Assembly (NCBI GenBank): GCA_963678705.1
Contig: OY783223.1
Coordinates: 2,728,001-2,792,000, forward strand
Reading direction: 5' to 3'
Length of the DNA: 64,000 nt
From: Panorpa germanica
Lineage: Eukaryota; Arthropoda; Insecta; Mecoptera; Panorpidae
A program made the position numbers and the translations under genes. A model generated the notes under the pieces. The model had not been told where the DNA came from. It made no database searches and saw only the letters and a list, made by a program, of their open reading frames with translations. The stretch's first letter is position 1; every line of letters starts with the position of its first letter. Below, in pieces: positions 6,894 through 50,290 of the stretch.

Positions 6894-7340
6894 GAGTGTA
6901 AGGAAAAAGTAGCGAGCGAAAGGAATATTGGCCAGCTATTAAAGGGAGGCAGTGAAGGAAAGAGGTGGATGGCGGAAATAGTAAGAAGGAAAGAAAAAAC
7001 AGGACAATAAATAAGCTGGTGGCTGGGTTGCATAAGGAACAGGAAGAGAGAGGAAGTACTAAGAGAGGCAGTGAAGGGAAGCAGGAGAAAGAAAGAAGTA
7101 GCGAGGAAACAGTTAAACTTCAGCCCAGAAAAATAGACTAGGGAATAGACCAGTACAGAAGGAAGACTAGGGAAAATGAAGGAAGAGGGTCAAGAGAAGA
7201 AGAAGCAGAAAGTACTTTTGGAGATAAAAAGGTCTAGAATAATGTAAATTTAATTGTAAGTTGAAGTAAATGAAATGTATTAAGAATGTAGATTGTAAAG
7301 CCGAAAGGCACACACAATTAACAATAAATAATAATAATAA
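6894..7340 (+). mobile_element. 5'-truncated LINE (subfamily 1) with target-site duplication
   Basis: The sequence matches 28062-28510 closely: the last codons of a LINE ORF2 (YWx...C-terminal region, truncated here), a purine-rich 3' UTR, the end signature GTAGATTGTAAAGCCGAAAGG and a short (AAT)n tail. The insertion is flanked by the 12-bp direct repeat AATAAACATCGA at 6884-6895 and 7336-7347. Severe 5' truncation plus a target duplication plus a simple-repeat tail is the hallmark of target-primed reverse transcription. It has no coding capacity. Confidence 0.9.
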
Positions 7341-11880: not shown

Positions 11881-12478
11881 ATTACACACGCTTATATGCG
11901 TCCTTGTTGTATCATTTTTCAACAACAACTTTGTTTTTTAAAACAAAGTAAAACAATGAATTTAGATGAAAATGATTCAAATGTTTATTGTATTAGAAAG
12001 AGTAAGGTTTTACAATTATGAATGGAACATGATATCGAACAAATATCTACTACGACCATGTTGACAGATGTCGATTCTTTTATCAAAATTTTCAATCACT
12101 TTTTGGCAAAATTGCGAGTCCATTTTGTAACTCGTGTCACGGATTTTGAGTTTTAAGGCTGCAATCGATTCGATTGGTTCCGTAGTTGTGTATAGCATAA
12201 CCTCACAAAAAATAATCCAGTGGTGTTAAATCACAGCTGAATTTCGTGAAATTCGTGATCCACTATTTTCAAAGCAGATTTTTATTATTTTAATGCGATT
12301 TTAGAGCGAAATTGAATTCATTGTAACAATTGCCAAAGCATCTACTACTGATATGTCAAAAAACTAAATGTCTAAAACTGTTATGTTGTTGGTGTTGCCA
12401 CTATTGAAAAAACAAAGTTCTTATTGAAAAACACTATAAAAAGAATTTTGTATACTTATCTTGTACATCTTACTTATG

Positions 12479-12606
12479 CCGGTTTTACACCAGAGAGACA
12501 GTTTTGAAAACAGTTTTATTGTAAAAAAACAAAACAACAACATGTTACTAAAACAGCAACAAAAGACAAAAGTGTTTTAAGAACTGTCTCTCTGGTGTAA
12601 AACCGG
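12479..12606. mobile_element. 128-bp MITE with perfect 25-bp terminal inverted repeats
   Basis: The arm beginning CCGGTTTTACACCAGAGAGA at 12479-12503 is exactly complementary to 12582-12606. The interior is A-rich and non-coding. TA dinucleotides lie close to both ends, as expected for Tc1/mariner-type MITEs, but the exact target duplication is ambiguous. A transcript would fold into a strong hairpin. Confidence 0.75.
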
Positions 12607-13020
12607 TATTAGAAAGTCGTTGTGATAGATTTAGTACTGGAGATATAATTATATGTATTAAGTAAAGTAAATTAAAAAAAACACATTTTTAGTTTTTGAA
12701 CTTTCCCGCCGGACTTCCGGTATATACATTTATGTAATCTATAAATATAATATAGTCATACGTACTGTACAATCTGCGACCTATGACAGCCGTTTAATAC
12801 TAGGTCAGATGCGACTGAACACGTGTTCAGATAAGAACTCCGCGCACGAGATTCACAGCGTGGGAACTGCATGGTTGTTTATTTTCAACTGATATGCAAA
12901 GATACTCACATAAATAAAGCTGCGTTGAGTAAACCAGTTCCCAGAACTAGTACTATAAAAGAAATGTACTTGTTCACGTTTTTTTGCTAATAATTAAAAA
13001 AAATAATTATAGCAAACATT

Positions 13021-13937: not shown

Positions 13938-14216
13938 ATGTTTTGTTCTGCGCAGGTCATTGCACTCTTCATAATGTCACTTGCAATTGTCGGTGCAACC
14001 CAAAGACAACGGGCAGTGCCAGCATACCTCGCTTCAAGAAATGAATTCCTAAGAAAAGAACAAGCGCGAGCACTCGGCGCGAAAATCGAGCTAACTACAA
14101 AAGAAGAAACAGCTAATAAGTTTATAATGGCTCTAAAACATAAAGAAGTTGATGAAGGCTTTAAGAATCCTCATCAATTCGCTCCTGCGCAGCATCTGTT
14201 TGATGTACTTAAAGAA
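13938..14216 (+). CDS. ADGF: ADGF (adenosine deaminase-related growth factor / ADA2), N-terminal coding block
   Basis: This encodes residues 1-93. The start at 13938 gives a clear secretory signal: a short polar start, hydrophobic VIALFIMSLAIVGA, then a likely cleavage before TQ. The N-terminal ADGF region follows (YLASRNEFLRKEQ, then EETANKFI..LK, then NPHQFAPAQHLFDVLKE), which in the family forms the dimerisation part preceding the catalytic barrel. The block must end by 14225 because an in-frame TAG occurs at 14226-14228. A donor, GAA|GTAAGG, at 14217 is phase 0 and matches the phase-0 resumption at 15425. The alternative start Met at 13973 or an upstream exon joined at 13955 cannot be excluded. 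The LINE tail begins only 15 bp beyond the donor. Confidence 0.85.
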
Positions 14217-14231
14217 GTAAGGAACTAGAAG

Positions 14232-14736
14232 TTATTATATTATATTATATTATTAATTGTTGGCCTTTCGGCTTCATAATCTACATTAATATTTCTTAAA
14301 ACATTTCATAGAATTTTAATTTAAAATTAATCTTAACTATTCTAGACTTTTCTATTTCCCACAGTATTTTCTGCTTCTTCTTCCCTTTACCCTCTCCCTT
14401 CCTGTTCTCTACACCTCCATCATTCTCACCGTTTCCTGCTTCTTCTTCCTTTTTGCCTGTACCTCTGTCTCTCACCTTCATTGACCTCTCTCGACAAACC
14501 CTCAATTATCTTTGCACTATTCTTTCATCCTTTTAGACTTCATTTTCACTTTCCTGCATTTTACCTCTATCACTATGTTCAGACATAATCCTTCGGATTT
14601 TTCACTTTCTCCTTCCAATTACTTCTGCCATCCATCCCTGTCCACACAATCATCCCTAATGTGCTCCAGTGTCTCCACCTCTGCTTTGCACACTCTACAC
14701 TTTTTTTCTTCTTCGTCCACTTTTCTTTTTAAATAA
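14232..14736 (-). mobile_element. LINE subfamily 1 fragment, antisense inside ADGF
   Basis: Read on the minus strand, it carries a LINE zinc-knuckle stretch (CRVC...ETLEHIRDDC) near 14640-14705. A purine-rich UTR follows, then the subfamily 1 end signature (GTAGATTATGAAGCCGAAAGG) and an AT-rich tail that abuts ADGF coding sequence at 14231. Stops and frame breaks show it is dead. Confidence 0.85.
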
Positions 14737-15405
14737 TAATTTAACTTATGTGCAGTTAGGCATTATATTCTTCTGCCTTAACATCACAGACTATATTTCA
14801 TTTTATTACGTACATCTACTCCACTTTCCTTTCAAACGTTTATTTCACAACGCTTCTCCAAACTTTATTCATCCATTTATTCCTTAATTCCTTCCTTGCA
14901 GCTTTTCTATCAGGTCTACTTCACTTTCCAACTTCTCCCGACACCTACTCTTCACATGCTCTAATGTTTCTGCTTTCTTGTCACACATCCTGCATAGTTT
15001 TTCCTCCCCTACAGTATCTACATCCCCTATCTTCTTTCCTTAGTCTAAAAGTTGCGATCATTTTCTTTTCATTACCTCCTTGTTTCTCTAGGTATTGAGG
15101 CATTCCTTTCGACCATAACTGACTGTATCTGGTATTGTTCTTCCTTTGATCCGTTCTCTTCATTCTATCCTGTTGTTGGACCTCTATGTCTCTTACCTTT
15201 ATCAGATTCCGTACCTCTATTCCTTCCTCTTTTAGTTTTACCATCTTCGCCGCCGTTAACTCTCTTCCTTTGACCTTCACCTCTTCTTGTATTTCCTCCA
15301 TTTCATCGCTCTTTGCCTTATTCACTTTTTCCTACAACATTATCACTCTCATTCTCAATTTTAAACAGTTCTCTTGTGTATATATATTCTCTTTGATATA
15401 TTGAA
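14737..15405 (-). mobile_element. LINE subfamily 2 fragment, antisense inside ADGF
   Basis: The minus strand encodes a 114-residue open stretch at 14981-15325 (KAKSDEMEEIQEEV..., IEVQQQDRMKR, MIATFRLRKED). This is co-linear with the LINE fragment at 61130-61700 (EIQQQKRMEK, RVARFRLGNEE). The 3' end motif TTAAGGCAGAAGAATATAATG matches 27911-27935. It is an ORF2 C-terminal piece of an R1/I-like LINE. Confidence 0.8.
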
Positions 15406-15424
15406 ATAGGTAAGGACCTCGCAG

Positions 15425-16681
15425 TTGTTTAAAATCATTGAAAAACTACCTAAAGGTTCTGCTCTTCACGGACATGATACAGCTCTCGTGACAACGGATT
15501 ATATCCTGAAGAATTTAACATACAGAGATAATTTATACGCAATCATCGATGGCGAGAAAATCGAACTACATTTCTACGACAAACCTCCAAGCAAAGAATG
15601 GAAATTATTGAAGGAGCATCGAGAATCTGCTGAAACGGTTGACGTCTTCGATGCGTGGTTGCGTTCCAAGCTGACATTGTTCGTGGACAACCCAAAAGAA
15701 AAATATACAGACATTAATGTTGTCTGGTCTTACTTCTACGAACTCTTTGGTGTCGTCGGACCAATTTTGTACTACAAACCAGTTTGGAAGGATTATTTCT
15801 ACCAAACACTTCTAGAGTTTTATGAAGATAATGTGATGTACATGGAAATTAGGGGGACATTACCGGAAGTCTACGATCTCGATGGTACGATATTCACTCC
15901 TTTGGAAATTGTTGGTTTCTACGTGGAAGTGCTAGAAAAGTTTAAGTCAGAGCACCCAGCGTTCATCGGAGCTAAGTTCATCTATGCCCCCATCCGTGGC
16001 GTAACGAAGGACATTGTCCAAGGATATATCGAGACGGCAATAGCTTTAAAACGAGCTTATCCTGATTTTATAGCAGGATTCGATCTAGTAGGCCAAGAAG
16101 ATTCAGGAAAACCTCTCTTATACTTCATCAACCAATTACTGAGCGTACCAGATGAAATAGACTTCTATTTCCACGCCGGTGAGACCAATTGGTTCGGAAC
16201 ATCCACAGACGAGAATCTTATCGATGCTGTGTTGCTAGGCACGAAGAGAATTGGACATGGATATGCGCTCCTCAAACATCCAGAGGTTCTCAAACTAGTA
16301 AAAGAACTGAAAATTGGTATAGAAGTGAATCCTTTGTCGAATCAGGTCTTGTTGCTGGTTGAGGACTTGAGGAATCACCCAGTGGCTGCGCTATTGGCTG
16401 ATGATTATCCCGTTGTTATATCCTGTGATGATCCTAGTTTCTGGGAAGCGAAAGGACTAAGCTACGACTGGTATATCGCGTTTGTTGGCATGGCCAGTAG
16501 AGATCAGGACTTGAGGATGCTGAAACAACTCGCTTTGAACTCGATTCAGTACAGCGGGCTTAACGACAAGGAAAAGGACAAGGCGTACCAGACTTGGAAA
16601 GCAGACTGGGAGAAATTTATAGACTATGTCGTCGGTCTTTCGTCTTTAGGAAATAATGAAGTTACTGGATTAGAACATTAA
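15425..16681 (+). CDS. ADGF: ADGF (ADA2-type adenosine deaminase), catalytic block
   Basis: This encodes 418 residues (about 94-511 of the precursor) in a single open frame that starts right after an acceptor CAG with LFKIIEKLPKG. It deaminates extracellular adenosine to inosine and acts outside the cell. Family landmarks are the zinc HxH in LHGHD (precursor H108, H110), YMEIRGTLPEVYDLDG, HAGET (H343, E346), RIGHGYAL (H371), EVNPLSNQ and the catalytic DDP (D428, D429). The total of about 511 residues is normal for insect ADGFs. Oddities: the usual SSDDP serine is Cys (ISCDDPSFWEAKG), a usual Gly after FW is Glu, and the paired cysteines I expect in the N-terminal insert (after RDNLY and before WKLL) are both absent. 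NLT at N123 is a glycosylation sequon. No frameshifts or stops were seen. Confidence 0.93.
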   Translation: MFKIIEKLPKGSALHGHDTALVTTDYILKNLTYRDNLYAIIDGEKIELHFYDKPPSKEWKLLKEHRESAETVDVFDAWLRSKLTLFVDNPKEKYTDINVVWSYFYELFGVVGPILYYKPVWKDYFYQTLLEFYEDNVMYMEIRGTLPEVYDLDGTIFTPLEIVGFYVEVLEKFKSEHPAFIGAKFIYAPIRGVTKDIVQGYIETAIALKRAYPDFIAGFDLVGQEDSGKPLLYFINQLLSVPDEIDFYFHAGETNWFGTSTDENLIDAVLLGTKRIGHGYALLKHPEVLKLVKELKIGIEVNPLSNQVLLLVEDLRNHPVAALLADDYPVVISCDDPSFWEAKGLSYDWYIAFVGMASRDQDLRMLKQLALNSIQYSGLNDKEKDKAYQTWKADWEKFIDYVVGLSSLGNNEVTGLEH

Positions 16682-27534: not shown

Positions 27535-27957
27535 GGAGAAAAGGAGACAAAGAACATTGCAAGATTTGGATTGGGAAACGAAGAAAAAGGTAGCAACTAC
27601 TGGTAAAATAGAGAGGAAGGATGTTCAAGGTGTGCGGGAGAGAGATAGAAACGCAGGAGCACATTATGTATTCATGTGAGAAAAGAGTAAGAAGTGAAAA
27701 GAAGATTGTGCAGTTATTAAAGAGAAGAGGTGGATGGTGGGATAGAGAGAAGGAGCGAGGAAAGAGCAGGATGGCAGAGTAAAAACAGGATGGAGAATAG
27801 CAGGAAGAGAGAAACAGTAGGAGTTTAAATTTATATATTTTGTTCGTATTTTTATTGTGTCTTTTGGAAGGAGTGATAATAGGTAGATAATATGTAATTA
27901 AGCACAATTTAAGGCGGAAGAATATAGCGCCTAATAGCAAAAACATTACAATAAGGT
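27535..27957 (+). mobile_element. LINE subfamily 2, 3' end
   Basis: The plus strand reads ARFGLGNEEKGSNYW and a degraded knuckle (CSRCAGER.ETQEHIMYSC), then a UTR and the subfamily 2 end motif ATTTAAGGCGGAAGAATATA followed by CAAAAACATTACAATAA. The same end occurs inverted at 61140-61200 and 14760-14840. Confidence 0.8.
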
Positions 27958-28510
27958 TTAGATTGGGAAATGAGGAAAGAGGAAACAGATACTGGGAAAG
28001 TAGTGAGGAAAGAAAGTGTAGAGTGTGCGGAGCGGAGGACGAAACACTGGAGCACATTAAGTTTGAGTGTAAGGAAAAAGTAGCGAGCGAAAGGAATATT
28101 GGCCAGCTATTAAAGGGAGGCAGTGAAGGAAAGAGGTGGATGGCGGAAATAGTAAGAAGGAAAGAAAAAACAGAACAATAAATAAGCTGGTGGCTGGGTT
28201 GTACAAGGAACAGGAAGAGAAAGGAAGTACTAAAAGAGGCAGTGAAGGGAAGCAGGAGAAAAGAAAGAAGTAGCGAGGAAACAGTTAAACTTCAGCCCAG
28301 AAAAATAGACTAGCGAATAGACCAGTACAGAAGGAAGACTAGGGAAAATGAAGGAAGAGGGTCAAGAGAAGAACAAGCAGAAAGTACTTTTGGAAATAAA
28401 AAGGTCTAGAATAATGTAAATTTAATTGTAAGTTGAAGTATATGAAATGTATTAAGAATGTAGATTGTAAAGCCGAAAGGCGAACAATAAACAATTAATA
28501 ATAATAATAC
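27958..28510 (+). mobile_element. LINE subfamily 1, 3' end with intact zinc knuckle
   Basis: The open stretch at 27963-28181 encodes GNEERGNRYWESSEERKCRV, then CGAEDETLEHIKFEC (a CxxC...HxxxxC knuckle found at the C-terminus of many LINE ORF2 proteins), then RWMAEIVRRKEKTEQ and a stop. The purine-rich UTR ends GTAGATTGTAAAGCCGAAAGG with an (AAT)n tail. It is the best-preserved representative here and is 5'-truncated exactly at the tail of the preceding subfamily 2 copy. Confidence 0.88.
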
Positions 28511-29440
28511 AATAAGATAATAATAAAATAAATTACATTAAAGGAGTATATTTTATTTCAATCATGCCCGCGTTTTATTTTTATGACCGCGTTTACCTCA
28601 AAAACTTTAAGCACCTGTGCTTTAGATAAAACCTATAAAAATTAGATTTCACTCAAATCAATAAAAATGCTAACCGCCCTTCAGCACCACAAAGCATCAG
28701 GTAATCCCATTTCGTATCACATATCAAATTCAACAGATTTTAAAAGACATAAAAAGTACAAAAAGAAAAGTAGAAGAACACCAGTAGATTTTGTTGTTTT
28801 TTTACATCTTATTTTATATTCGTGTAAGGTAAAAAACTTGTTTATCAATTTTTATAAATGTATTACACCCCTACTTACAGCCCTTATCTTATTTAAGCCA
28901 CCCTATCATTTTAAATCTATCTCACACGTGTATAACCGTGTAACTGTCTCCGCGATAGATGTGTGTGTAAGTGCTTGGGGCGCTTTTTTAGGGTTGACTT
29001 AGACGTAGGCATATAGGGTAGTCTGGGTCTCGTAGGGGTGGGTTTGTTTGTTATATGTTTTTGTGAAGAGCTTAGAAAAATATCATACAGTTCGTTGTCG
29101 TATAACACGCTACTTATACAACGCGATATACATATATATGTTTATAATAGGTCTTATTTTAATGCTATTACTTTAATAAAATATTTAAGTCATTTCCTAA
29201 GATGTAGAGTGTAAGGACGGACATGGCTTTAAATTGCGTCATAACATTGCGAGTAATTTTAAAAAATCATTTGAGATCCTGATAGTTAAGTTTATCAATA
29301 CATATCATATACATTTCTTGAATTCAAAAGGTTATATACAGTCAGGAGGCTCAAAAAAGCGACTTTTTAAGAATTTTTCCCGAGAAGACTTTTAAATGTA
29401 TTAGTGTAAAAATTTGTACACATATTATGGTAACTTTTAA
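28511..29440. other. Intergenic DNA, nothing recognised
   Basis: Open frames at 28667-29002 and its antisense have no domain signal. No repeats were recognised, except a faint family-A-like TTTATCAATACATATC near 29290. Confidence 0.4.
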
Positions 29441-35018: not shown

Positions 35019-35988
35019 GCACATGGGCTGAAAAGTCCCGGACCTAACACATAGATGGCGCTAGTTTTATTGCAGTCACCTTTTTTTCAGTTAATACTAA
35101 CCTCAAAAGACAGCTGTTCAAATTTCATGATATTCTATTCAGTAGTTTGTGAGTTATTGTGCTAAGAGTGACGCTACTTTTCTTATTTTCAAAACAATGG
35201 ATCAAAAACAATTTCGTGTTTTAATTTTACACTGCTTCTTGATGGGAAAAAATACCGTTCAAGCGAAGCAATGGCTTGAAAAGTGTTATGGGGACTCCGC
35301 TCCATCAGAAACAACAATAAAACGTTGGTTTGCTGACTTCAAACGTGGTCGTAAAGAAACCGATGATGCAGAACGCAGTTGACGTCCAAATGAGGCGGTA
35401 ACACCAGAAAACATAAAAAAAATCCACAAAATCGTTTTGAATGATCCAAAAGTGAAGTTGCGTGAGTTAGCTGACATCGTAAAGATATCAAAGGAACGTG
35501 TTGGCTTTATATTGCATGAGCATTTGACTATGGGAAAGCTCTGTTCAAAGTGGGTGCCGCGTTTGCTTACTGTTGACCAAAAACGAGAACGTGTTGATGA
35601 TTCTGAGCAGTGTTTGGCTATGTTTAAACGTAACAAACCGGAATTTTTGCGTCGACATGTGACAATGGATGAAACATGGATCCATCACTTCACTCCGGAA
35701 TCAAAACGATCGTCATCTGAGTGGACAGCAACTGGTGAACCTCGTCCCGTTGAACCGGTGAATGCTCGCCGGTAAGAAATTTCGCACGAATGAAGAGGTT
35801 ATCGCTGAAACTGAGGCCTATTTTGAGGCAAAAGATAAATCGTTCTACAAAAGTGGTATTGAAATGTTAGAACGGCGCTGGAATGATTGCGTTGCTCTTG
35901 ATGGAGATTACGTTGATGAATAAAGCTAATTTTGAACCAAAAAAACTGCGTTTTCTTTGTTAGGCCCGGGACTTTTCAGCCCATGTGT
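35019..35988 (+). mobile_element. Mariner transposon, internally deleted
   Basis: Terminal inverted repeats of about 30 bp (ACATGGGCTGAAAAGTCCCG with GACCTAACA or GGCCTAACA following) bound 970 bp. TA dinucleotides flank it at 35017-35018 and 35989-35990, the mariner target duplication. It is shorter than the usual roughly 1.3 kb because the middle of the transposase gene is missing. Confidence 0.95.
35197..35923 (+). pseudogene. Mariner transposase pseudogene
   Basis: Starts MDQKQFRVLILHCFLMGKNT with the mariner helix-turn-helix region, continues through SETTIKRWFADFKRG and has an in-frame TGA right after DDAERS (35380-35382). It resumes with RPNEAVTPENIKKIHK, KISKERVGFILHEHLT and VTMDETWIHHF, which holds the first catalytic Asp. 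A deletion near 35757-35763 then joins EPRP to the C-terminal GKKFRTNEEVIAETEAYF in a different frame. The HQDN and the last D box of the catalytic triad are gone, so it cannot be active. The sequence suggests the irritans-like side of mariner, from memory. Confidence 0.95.
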
Positions 35989-42466: not shown

Positions 42467-43359
42467 GAGTCGTAAAAATAAATCGAGCACACAAAGTAAT
42501 CATATCTATAACACCCGAGCTAGAAAAGTCATAAAAGAATGTGATTAATAAGTGTATATTGTGAACGGAAACCAAGTCAAAGGTTAAAGCAATTAAAATG
42601 TGTGAAACTTTAAACCACTGATTGAATACGTGAAGGAATGTGCTTACCGAAATTAACTAAACGCATTCTCAAAAGTAATAAAAATAAACCTATTGAATCT
42701 AGCTGAAAACTAATGTAGGACTGAGTATATAATAACTAGAATTCAAGATGGTTTGTTCTGTATTTGTAAAGTAAATACCAACGTTTATATTGTAACCTTA
42801 TTGTATTATTATCATCGTTATTATTTTATTAAATAAATGTATTAAACAAATTATGTGATTCTTTATCATCCTGACAAGAAACTAAGATATTGCATAGTTG
42901 AATATTCACTGAATTGACATTTGCCCTAAATTAAATAAGAATACCTTGATTCCACATTAGATTAGCGGATTGGGTATTGTATTCCACATCAGAAGTGGGA
43001 TAGTACTCTCGTTTTCCACATATATATAGAATCAAAATAAACTTTATTTTATCAAATAATCGTTACACTTTTCAAATCCATTCTATTTAAGATTAATTAC
43101 TAATCCCGATTTCATATAAATGTTTATCCTAAGCAATTATGATTAACTAAATAGATGATAATAAGCTTTTGTGTTTCTAGCTTCCTTTTATTAGTAATAT
43201 ATATTATTTATTATTAAATCCTTAATATTTTAAGGTATAGTACTACCAAGACGTATTACCTACTTAACGATAAATCCTTAAATAATCATAGCAAGATTTA
43301 TCATGGTTATATCTCGTAAACTATACGTGATGATTTAAATTTTGTTGGATAGAGGGTTC
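42464..43359. other. Intergenic DNA, nothing recognised
   Basis: No supported feature. Confidence 0.45.
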
Positions 43360-43711
43360 ATGTCTGTAATAGAGTGATAGAGGTAAAAGGTAGGAGAAGT
43401 GAAGATGAAGACATAATGGTGGAAGGATAGTGAAAAGATAATAGAGGGTTTGTCGAGAGGAGACAAGGAAGGTGAGAAACGGACGTACAGGCAAGAGGGA
43501 AGGAGAAGCAGGAAACGGAGAGAATGAAGGAGGAGTAGGGAACATGAAAAGAGAGGGTCAAGAGAAGAAGAAGCATACAGTACTTTTGGAAGTAGTAAAA
43601 GTCTAGAATAGTTTAAGTTTGAATGTATATAGGAATGAAATATATTAAGAAATATAATAATGTAGATTGTAAAACCGAAAGGCACACAATTAATATAGTA
43701 AATAATACAAA
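43360..43711 (+). mobile_element. LINE subfamily 1, 3' UTR fragment
   Basis: AGAGTGATAGAGGTAAAAGG, GAGGGTTTGTCGAGAGG and the end signature GTAGATTGTAAAACCGAAAGG with an AT-rich tail. The tail is the target of the hAT MITE that follows. Confidence 0.85.
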
Positions 43712-49839: not shown

Positions 49840-50290
49840 GGCATTTGAAGCAGGAGAAAGGTGGAGCAGCTATTAAAACGGGGAAAGGAAGAGAACAGAT
49901 GAATGGCAGAAGTAATTAGAAGAAGGAAGTGAAAAACCAGAAGGTGGATCTGAACAGAGTGATAGAGGTAAAAGGCAGGAGAGGGAAAATGAAGTCTGAA
50001 AAGAAGAAAGAATGATGCAAAGATAATAGAGGGTTTGTCGAGAGGGGTCAAGGAAGGCAAAAGGTGAGTGACGCAGGTACAGGAAAAAAGGAAGGAGAAG
50101 CAGGAAATAGTGAGAAGGAAAGAGGTGTAGGGAACAGGAAGGGAGAGAGTAAACAGAGGAAGAATCAAAAAGTACTGTCGAAAATAGAAATGTCTAGAAT
50201 AGTTAAGATTAATTTTAAGTTGAAATGTTGTAAGAAATATTAATGTAGATTGTAAAGCCGAAAGGAAAACAATTAATAATAAAATATATA
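49840..50290 (+). mobile_element. LINE subfamily 1, 3' fragment
   Basis: GAACAGAGTGATAGAGGTAA, GGGTTTGTCGAGAGGGGTCA and the end signature GTAGATTGTAAAGCCGAAAGG, then AACAATTAATAATAAAATAT. The 162-codon minus frame over it is the complement of this purine-rich UTR. Confidence 0.85.

Follow-up and report, generated by a model that had tools for sequence, protein, structure and literature searches.

An antisense LINE-type insertion in an ADGF gene of Panorpa germanica has very probably become an intron with both splice sites drawn from its target-site duplication

An adenosine deaminase gene of the ADGF/ADA2 type lies at positions 13938-16681 of the window, the 64,000-nucleotide stretch of the Panorpa germanica genome that we analysed. 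Its coding sequence falls into two open blocks, one of 93 codons and one of 423 (Table 1). The protein joined from these blocks matches PF08451 (A_deaminase_N, E 1.7e-21) and PF00962 (A_deaminase) above the Pfam cut-offs, and combines an N-terminal ADGF domain with a deaminase domain. One of its three best solved relatives is 3lgd, adenosine deaminase CECR1 (E 1.3e-121), the human ADA2. A database search matched 906 proteins; the 120 listed share 47-55% identity with the window protein, and those named to species are insect proteins, with no close relative among them. A pyrimidine-rich stretch at 13938-13956 ends in CAG just 3' of the ATG. It could be the acceptor to which a first exon farther upstream is joined, which leaves the choice of start codon uncertain.

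Table 1. Features of the ADGF locus, in window coordinates, and the second ADGF gene
Feature	Position	Strand	Remarks
ADGF coding exon 1	13938..14216	+	93 codons, counted from the first in-frame ATG; ends ...HLFDVLKE
Left copy of 42-nt duplication	14195..14236	+	22 nt of exon 1 and 20 nt of intron
5' splice site GAA/GTAAGG, predicted	14217..14222	+	read-through meets TAG at 14226-14228
Intron, predicted	14217..15409	+	1193 nt, phase 0, GT-AG; from protein spacing and register of the duplication
LINE-type fragment A	14237..14720	-	antisense; TTATTA-rich 3' tail adjoins left copy; 76-86% identity to 27 copies; weak zf-RVT match
LINE-type fragment B, related to A	14726..15375	-	antisense; clear to ~15346, weaker to ~15375
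Right copy of 42-nt duplication	15388..15429	+	22 nt of intron (LFDILK*) and 20 nt of exon 2 (VRTSQL and two bases)
3' splice site AAATAG/GTAAGG, predicted	15408..15409	+	keeps five conserved residues
ADGF coding exon 2	15410..16681	+	423 codons and stop; from protein comparison and Pfam
Second ADGF gene	G000:C11:2988384-2999112 (L052-L058)		about seven introns, four with ends set

The interval between the coding blocks is bounded by a direct duplication that spans both exon edges. The sequences GTAAGGAACTAGAAG (14217-14231) and GTAAGGACCTCGCAG (15410-15424) agree at 12 of 15 positions and are the middle part of a 42-nt imperfect duplication: ungapped extension yields two copies spaced 1193 nt apart, identical at 32 of 42 positions in register (76%). 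The left copy reads LFDVLKE/VRN*KLL in the gene's frame and the right copy LFDILK*/VRTSQLF. A tblastn alignment with the protein crosses the junction at either copy, reaching 7 residues into the intron at the left copy (VRN*KLL). Both halves contribute, with the end of exon 1 matching the end of the intron at 16 of 22 positions and the start of the intron matching the start of exon 2 at 16 of 20. Each copy holds the end of one exon together with the start of the next, and is therefore most simply derived from contiguous coding DNA, which would have had no intron at this point when it was duplicated.

Simulated introns did not reproduce these edges. Under three null models of composition, with GTAAGG and the final AG held constant, none of 200,000 introns per model reached 32 of 42; the best scored 28, 29 and 29. 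Within the 64-kb window, the 22-nt end of exon 1 finds at least 16 of 22 matches only at its own site and at the intron end, and the 20-nt start of exon 2 finds at least 16 of 20 only at its own site and at the intron start. Random pairs of 42-mers from the window reach 32 at a frequency of 2.0e-5 (1751 of 86,598,029, repeats included), a figure that, like the others for chance, is somewhat favourable to the duplication because its 42-nt length was picked by extension. In the equivalent edge comparison, four introns of the paralogous gene on C11 scored 14, 9, 12 and 18 of 42.

The body of the intron consists of transposable-element sequence that recurs in the genome, which we searched (464 Mb, 249 contigs) for LINE copies and ADGF genes. 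It comprises two related but distinct fragments, A and B, placed head to tail and both antisense. With a query starting at 14100, all 39 other main matches listed for fragment A, drawn from the 40 candidates scored of 4418 and leaving out 8 smaller pieces, have their first aligned position in the interval 14226-14250, where the left copy ends. At least 39 other main matches are listed for fragment B, again among 40 candidates scored. The 27 copies compared with fragment A (L002-L028) are seven from the first genome search, the window itself aside, and 20 further loci. Fragment B gave best alignments of 69-76% to 19 loci, 13 of which have an alignment starting within 14719-14740; this looks like the fragment's own 3' end. 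Some B alignments reach 15397-15408, but the aligned letters are unlike 15388-15409, and we rejected a LINE origin for the last 22 nt of the intron.

The inserted sequence has the hallmarks expected of a non-LTR (LINE) retrotransposon: a common 3' end, a simple-repeat tail and variable 5' truncation. In the intron copy and four other window copies of A, the end is rich in TTATTA and leads into a CCTTTCGG motif, the copies differing slightly from one another. These four copies (7168-7336, 28340-28520, 43352-43710 and 49898-50288) all lie in the opposite orientation to the intron copy. A Pfam search of the LINE pieces returned no reverse transcriptase domain, only zf-RVT matches below the Pfam cut-off, in two antisense frames of the intron (E 0.03 and 0.0033) and in the window copy near 28 kb (E 0.0004). 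The window also holds a MITE-like inverted repeat at 12469-12616, whose 49-nt arms are 88% complementary and separated by 50 nt. An open frame at 35383-35775 resembles a mariner-type transposase fragment; Pfam found no match at E 0.01 in two other window ORFs, this one included.

Shorter candidate direct repeats flank some other copies of fragment A. Repeats near the tail and 5' end measure 13 bp at L002, 12 at L003, 20 at L005, 23 at L006 and 14 at L027, so that the 42-bp ADGF duplication exceeds the 12-23 bp range seen there. A candidate repeat was present at 11 of the 27 A loci, some not beside the tail, and none scored above threshold at the other 16. One of those 16, L008, has a 12-bp repeat under looser scoring, and the looser search at two window copies of A gave no direct repeat. 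Two copies about 1.1 Mb apart on C7, L006 (1477-1499) and L019, carry an identical flanking direct repeat, which suggests a segmental duplication. For fragment A of the intron itself, no separate target-site duplication could be made out, its tail being highly repetitive.

These results bear out much of what a preliminary description had read at the locus. It had reported the 12-of-15 direct repeat in codon phase with the flanking exons, and the sequence agrees; its statement that the interval is nearly all antisense LINE is upheld by the genome matches of both fragments. Its central proposal, an insertion into coding sequence with a target-site duplication, now stands on copies that both extend over the junction, stronger ground than the 15-bp repeat alone.

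Protein spacing points to an intron that costs the gene no codon. Two in-frame AG sites occur between 15250 and 15460, at 15409 and 15424, and only the first keeps the residues VRTSQ. With these kept, the stretch of the window protein that opens with the H of HLFDV and closes with the G of LPKG is 24 residues long, as it is in 119 of the 120 listed homologues (906 found); the one that differs, P0001, is a fused prediction that lacks the region. There is no gap at VRTSQ in the alignments to the three best solved relatives (3lgd, 9nti and 9nte). Because of this spacing, and because 15409 alone retains the five residues, the acceptor is most likely 15409 rather than 15424. The 40 nt before it form a weak pyrimidine tract (60% C+T), and the intron as a whole is 71% C+T, a richness in pyrimidines that follows from antisense insertion as a side effect. 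From the open exons and the protein spacing we infer that the element is removed by splicing.

The preliminary description fared unevenly here. The donor that it named in the left copy, GAA/GTAAGG, is supported as a predicted site. It had placed the acceptor at 15424, at the price of five codons, whereas 15409 would restore the coding sequence exactly. Its statement that the HLFDV-LPKG region falls five residues short of the family norm does not hold once VRTSQ is counted, and the 511 flanking open codons that it gave are 516 (93 + 423). Taken as a whole, its observation survives for the repeat, the phase and the LINE interval and fails for the protein spacing and the codon count.

A paralogue lacks an intron at this position. 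Apart from the window gene, a six-frame genome search with the ADGF protein found a single gene, on C11, in seven separate matches of 32-50% identity. One C11 exon covers window-gene residues 34-109 without a break and includes AKHFFLARDGINQSPVYDFVKKMPKG; the donor of this exon falls within the codon that follows MPK. Introns with ends set lie near residues 109, 190, 352 and 405 of the C11 gene, and breaks between matches suggest others near 245, 311 and 472. None of these is present in the window gene. Its second block stays open over residues 94-516, and the LINE appears to be its only evident coding intron. The window gene may be a retrocopy, which would explain the absence of the C11 introns. 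The uninterrupted exon of this one old paralogue, together with copies that span the junction, indicates that the ancestral gene had no intron here. A search for DNA of ADGF relatives found none in viral contigs and, in genome contigs, one bacterial relative, which has no bearing on where introns lie. Among the papers listed on the structure of ADGF genes, nothing usable on intron positions came up.

We consider it very probable that an antisense LINE inserted into ADGF coding sequence and became an intron with both splice sites supplied by the target-site duplication. In this account a LINE-type (non-LTR) retrotransposon would have entered, in antisense, a coding sequence that was still contiguous (LFDVLKEVRTSQLF, ...HLFDVLKEVRTSQLF...). 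About 42 bp of target, roughly codons LFDVLKE-VRTSQL, would have been duplicated. The left copy would then have provided the donor GAA/GTAAGG, and the right copy the acceptor, now AAATAG/GTAAGG, followed by the coding half in use. Splicing between these sites would remove all that separates them, from the remainder of the left copy through the LINE to the first part of the right copy, giving an mRNA with the pre-insertion reading.

The acceptor could have been present from the start or could have arisen later. In place of the GAA that ends exon 1, the right copy has TAG. Since the ancestral gene could not have carried a stop there, the right copy, at least, changed after duplication. An ancestral GAG requires one change in each copy and an ancestral GAA two in the right copy, and the change counts do not decide between them. 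With GAG as the ancestral Glu codon, the target would have contained an AG/GT proto-splice site and both splice sites would have existed from the moment of insertion. With GAA, the acceptor AG would have come by mutation in the right copy.

The two LINE fragments may have arrived together or one after the other. At the A/B border, similarity breaks off at 14719-14721 in most of the A loci that match there, and A matches in B loci fall on B itself or far away. Unbroken alignments over the border come from the window copy near 28 kb (14650-14822, 66%; region 27600-28520) and from L021 (14657-14858, 65%), and partial ones from L005 and L010. The 28-kb copy and L021 hint at a composite LINE. Fragment A may have entered B's tail in an insertion of its own, a single event may have switched template, or the two may have come in together as parts of a composite element. 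We also entertain a bolder version, which we hold to be unlikely: a single target-primed insertion, either of a composite or of LINE A and LINE B joined when the template jumped from A RNA to B RNA, left one long duplication at AG/GT and made a kilobase-sized, pyrimidine-rich, precisely spliced intron at one stroke. If this were true and repeated by the family, Panorpa germanica would possess a LINE-based intron maker.

Gain is favoured over an older intron later invaded, given the edge peptides and the C11 exon without an intron. The preliminary description had offered such an older intron, filled by LINEs and matched at its edges by chance, as its alternative. LINEs are frequent in insect introns, and GTAAG is the donor consensus, which inflates the 15-bp match. 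The match nevertheless covers both edges, it was never equalled in simulations that had GTAAGG and AG given, and the edge copies yield nearly the same peptide; nor does the C11 paralogue have an intron here. A pre-existing intron could not give contiguous copies of both exon edges, and we regard this as the least probable reading of all. Scarcely better is the same insertion spliced from 14216 to 15425 with the loss of five codons. The AG at 15424 belongs to an in-frame CAG that could have served early, before AAATAG; this route would discard residues kept in 119 of the 120 listed homologues and ungapped against the three solved relatives, and only 50% of the 40 nt before 15424 are pyrimidines.

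A tandem duplication of the coding segment, with the LINE arriving independently, would make the same splicing claim, and its likelihood is not exclusive of that of the insertion account. Its appeal is that 42 bp is long relative to the repeats at LINE A copies and that the tandem model is documented (PMC3443670, PMC4974935). LINE homology starts, however, at the end of the left copy, so an independent insertion would have had to hit the junction between copies, and A and B each show a family 3' end in one orientation, unlike random filler. We rate it as improbable.

The insertion account matters because the origin of new introns is an open question and most old introns no longer show how they arose. 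In ADGF the coding peptide duplicated at both edges makes it possible to read from one genome that there was gain and not loss, by what mechanism, and where both splice sites came from. Among the titles listed in a survey of the literature on transposon-derived introns, none is on this gene, and the portions consulted of PMC12124190 and PMC3257199 contain no LINE case of the ADGF type.

The ADGF intron would be an unusually legible case of a precise intron gain already modelled, with a retrotransposon precedent in Drosophila that involves Doc, a LINE. Intron 3 of Drosophila sechellia GM26034 was gained by insertion of the retrotransposon Doc1053 (Yenerall et al. 2011, PMC3296678). It has in common with ADGF a non-LTR element in an insect coding exon, target-site duplications and a frame that is kept. 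The GM26034 intron is 98.4% similar to Doc1053, added five amino acids and has its downstream duplication 15 nt past the intron end (PMC3296678), whereas in ADGF the element is old, the duplication covers both splice sites and no residue would be gained or lost.

A review describes the model of precise gain, in which a transposon enters AGGT and the duplicated target becomes both splice sites, leaving the coding sequence unchanged; a table in that review counts 35 transposon-insertion events (PMC3443670). ADGF shares the donor on one side, the acceptor on the other and the unchanged coding sequence, but its AGGT would be ancestral and does not stand in both copies (left GAA/GT, right TAG/GT). 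Introners are introns made by transposable-element insertion that form families of similar sequences, for which DNA transposition is the most consistent origin; in some of these families both splice sites are taken from the place of insertion (Gozashti et al. 2022, PMC9860276). In both cases transposable elements would have made the introns; ADGF offers one intron, and its element is LINE-type. In tandem genomic duplication introns, the Rogers model exemplified by ATP2A1 and potato RdRp (PMC4974935), a duplicated exonic segment can likewise supply both splice sites. The ADGF copies differ in not being adjacent: they flank 1151 bp of mostly LINE-type sequence.
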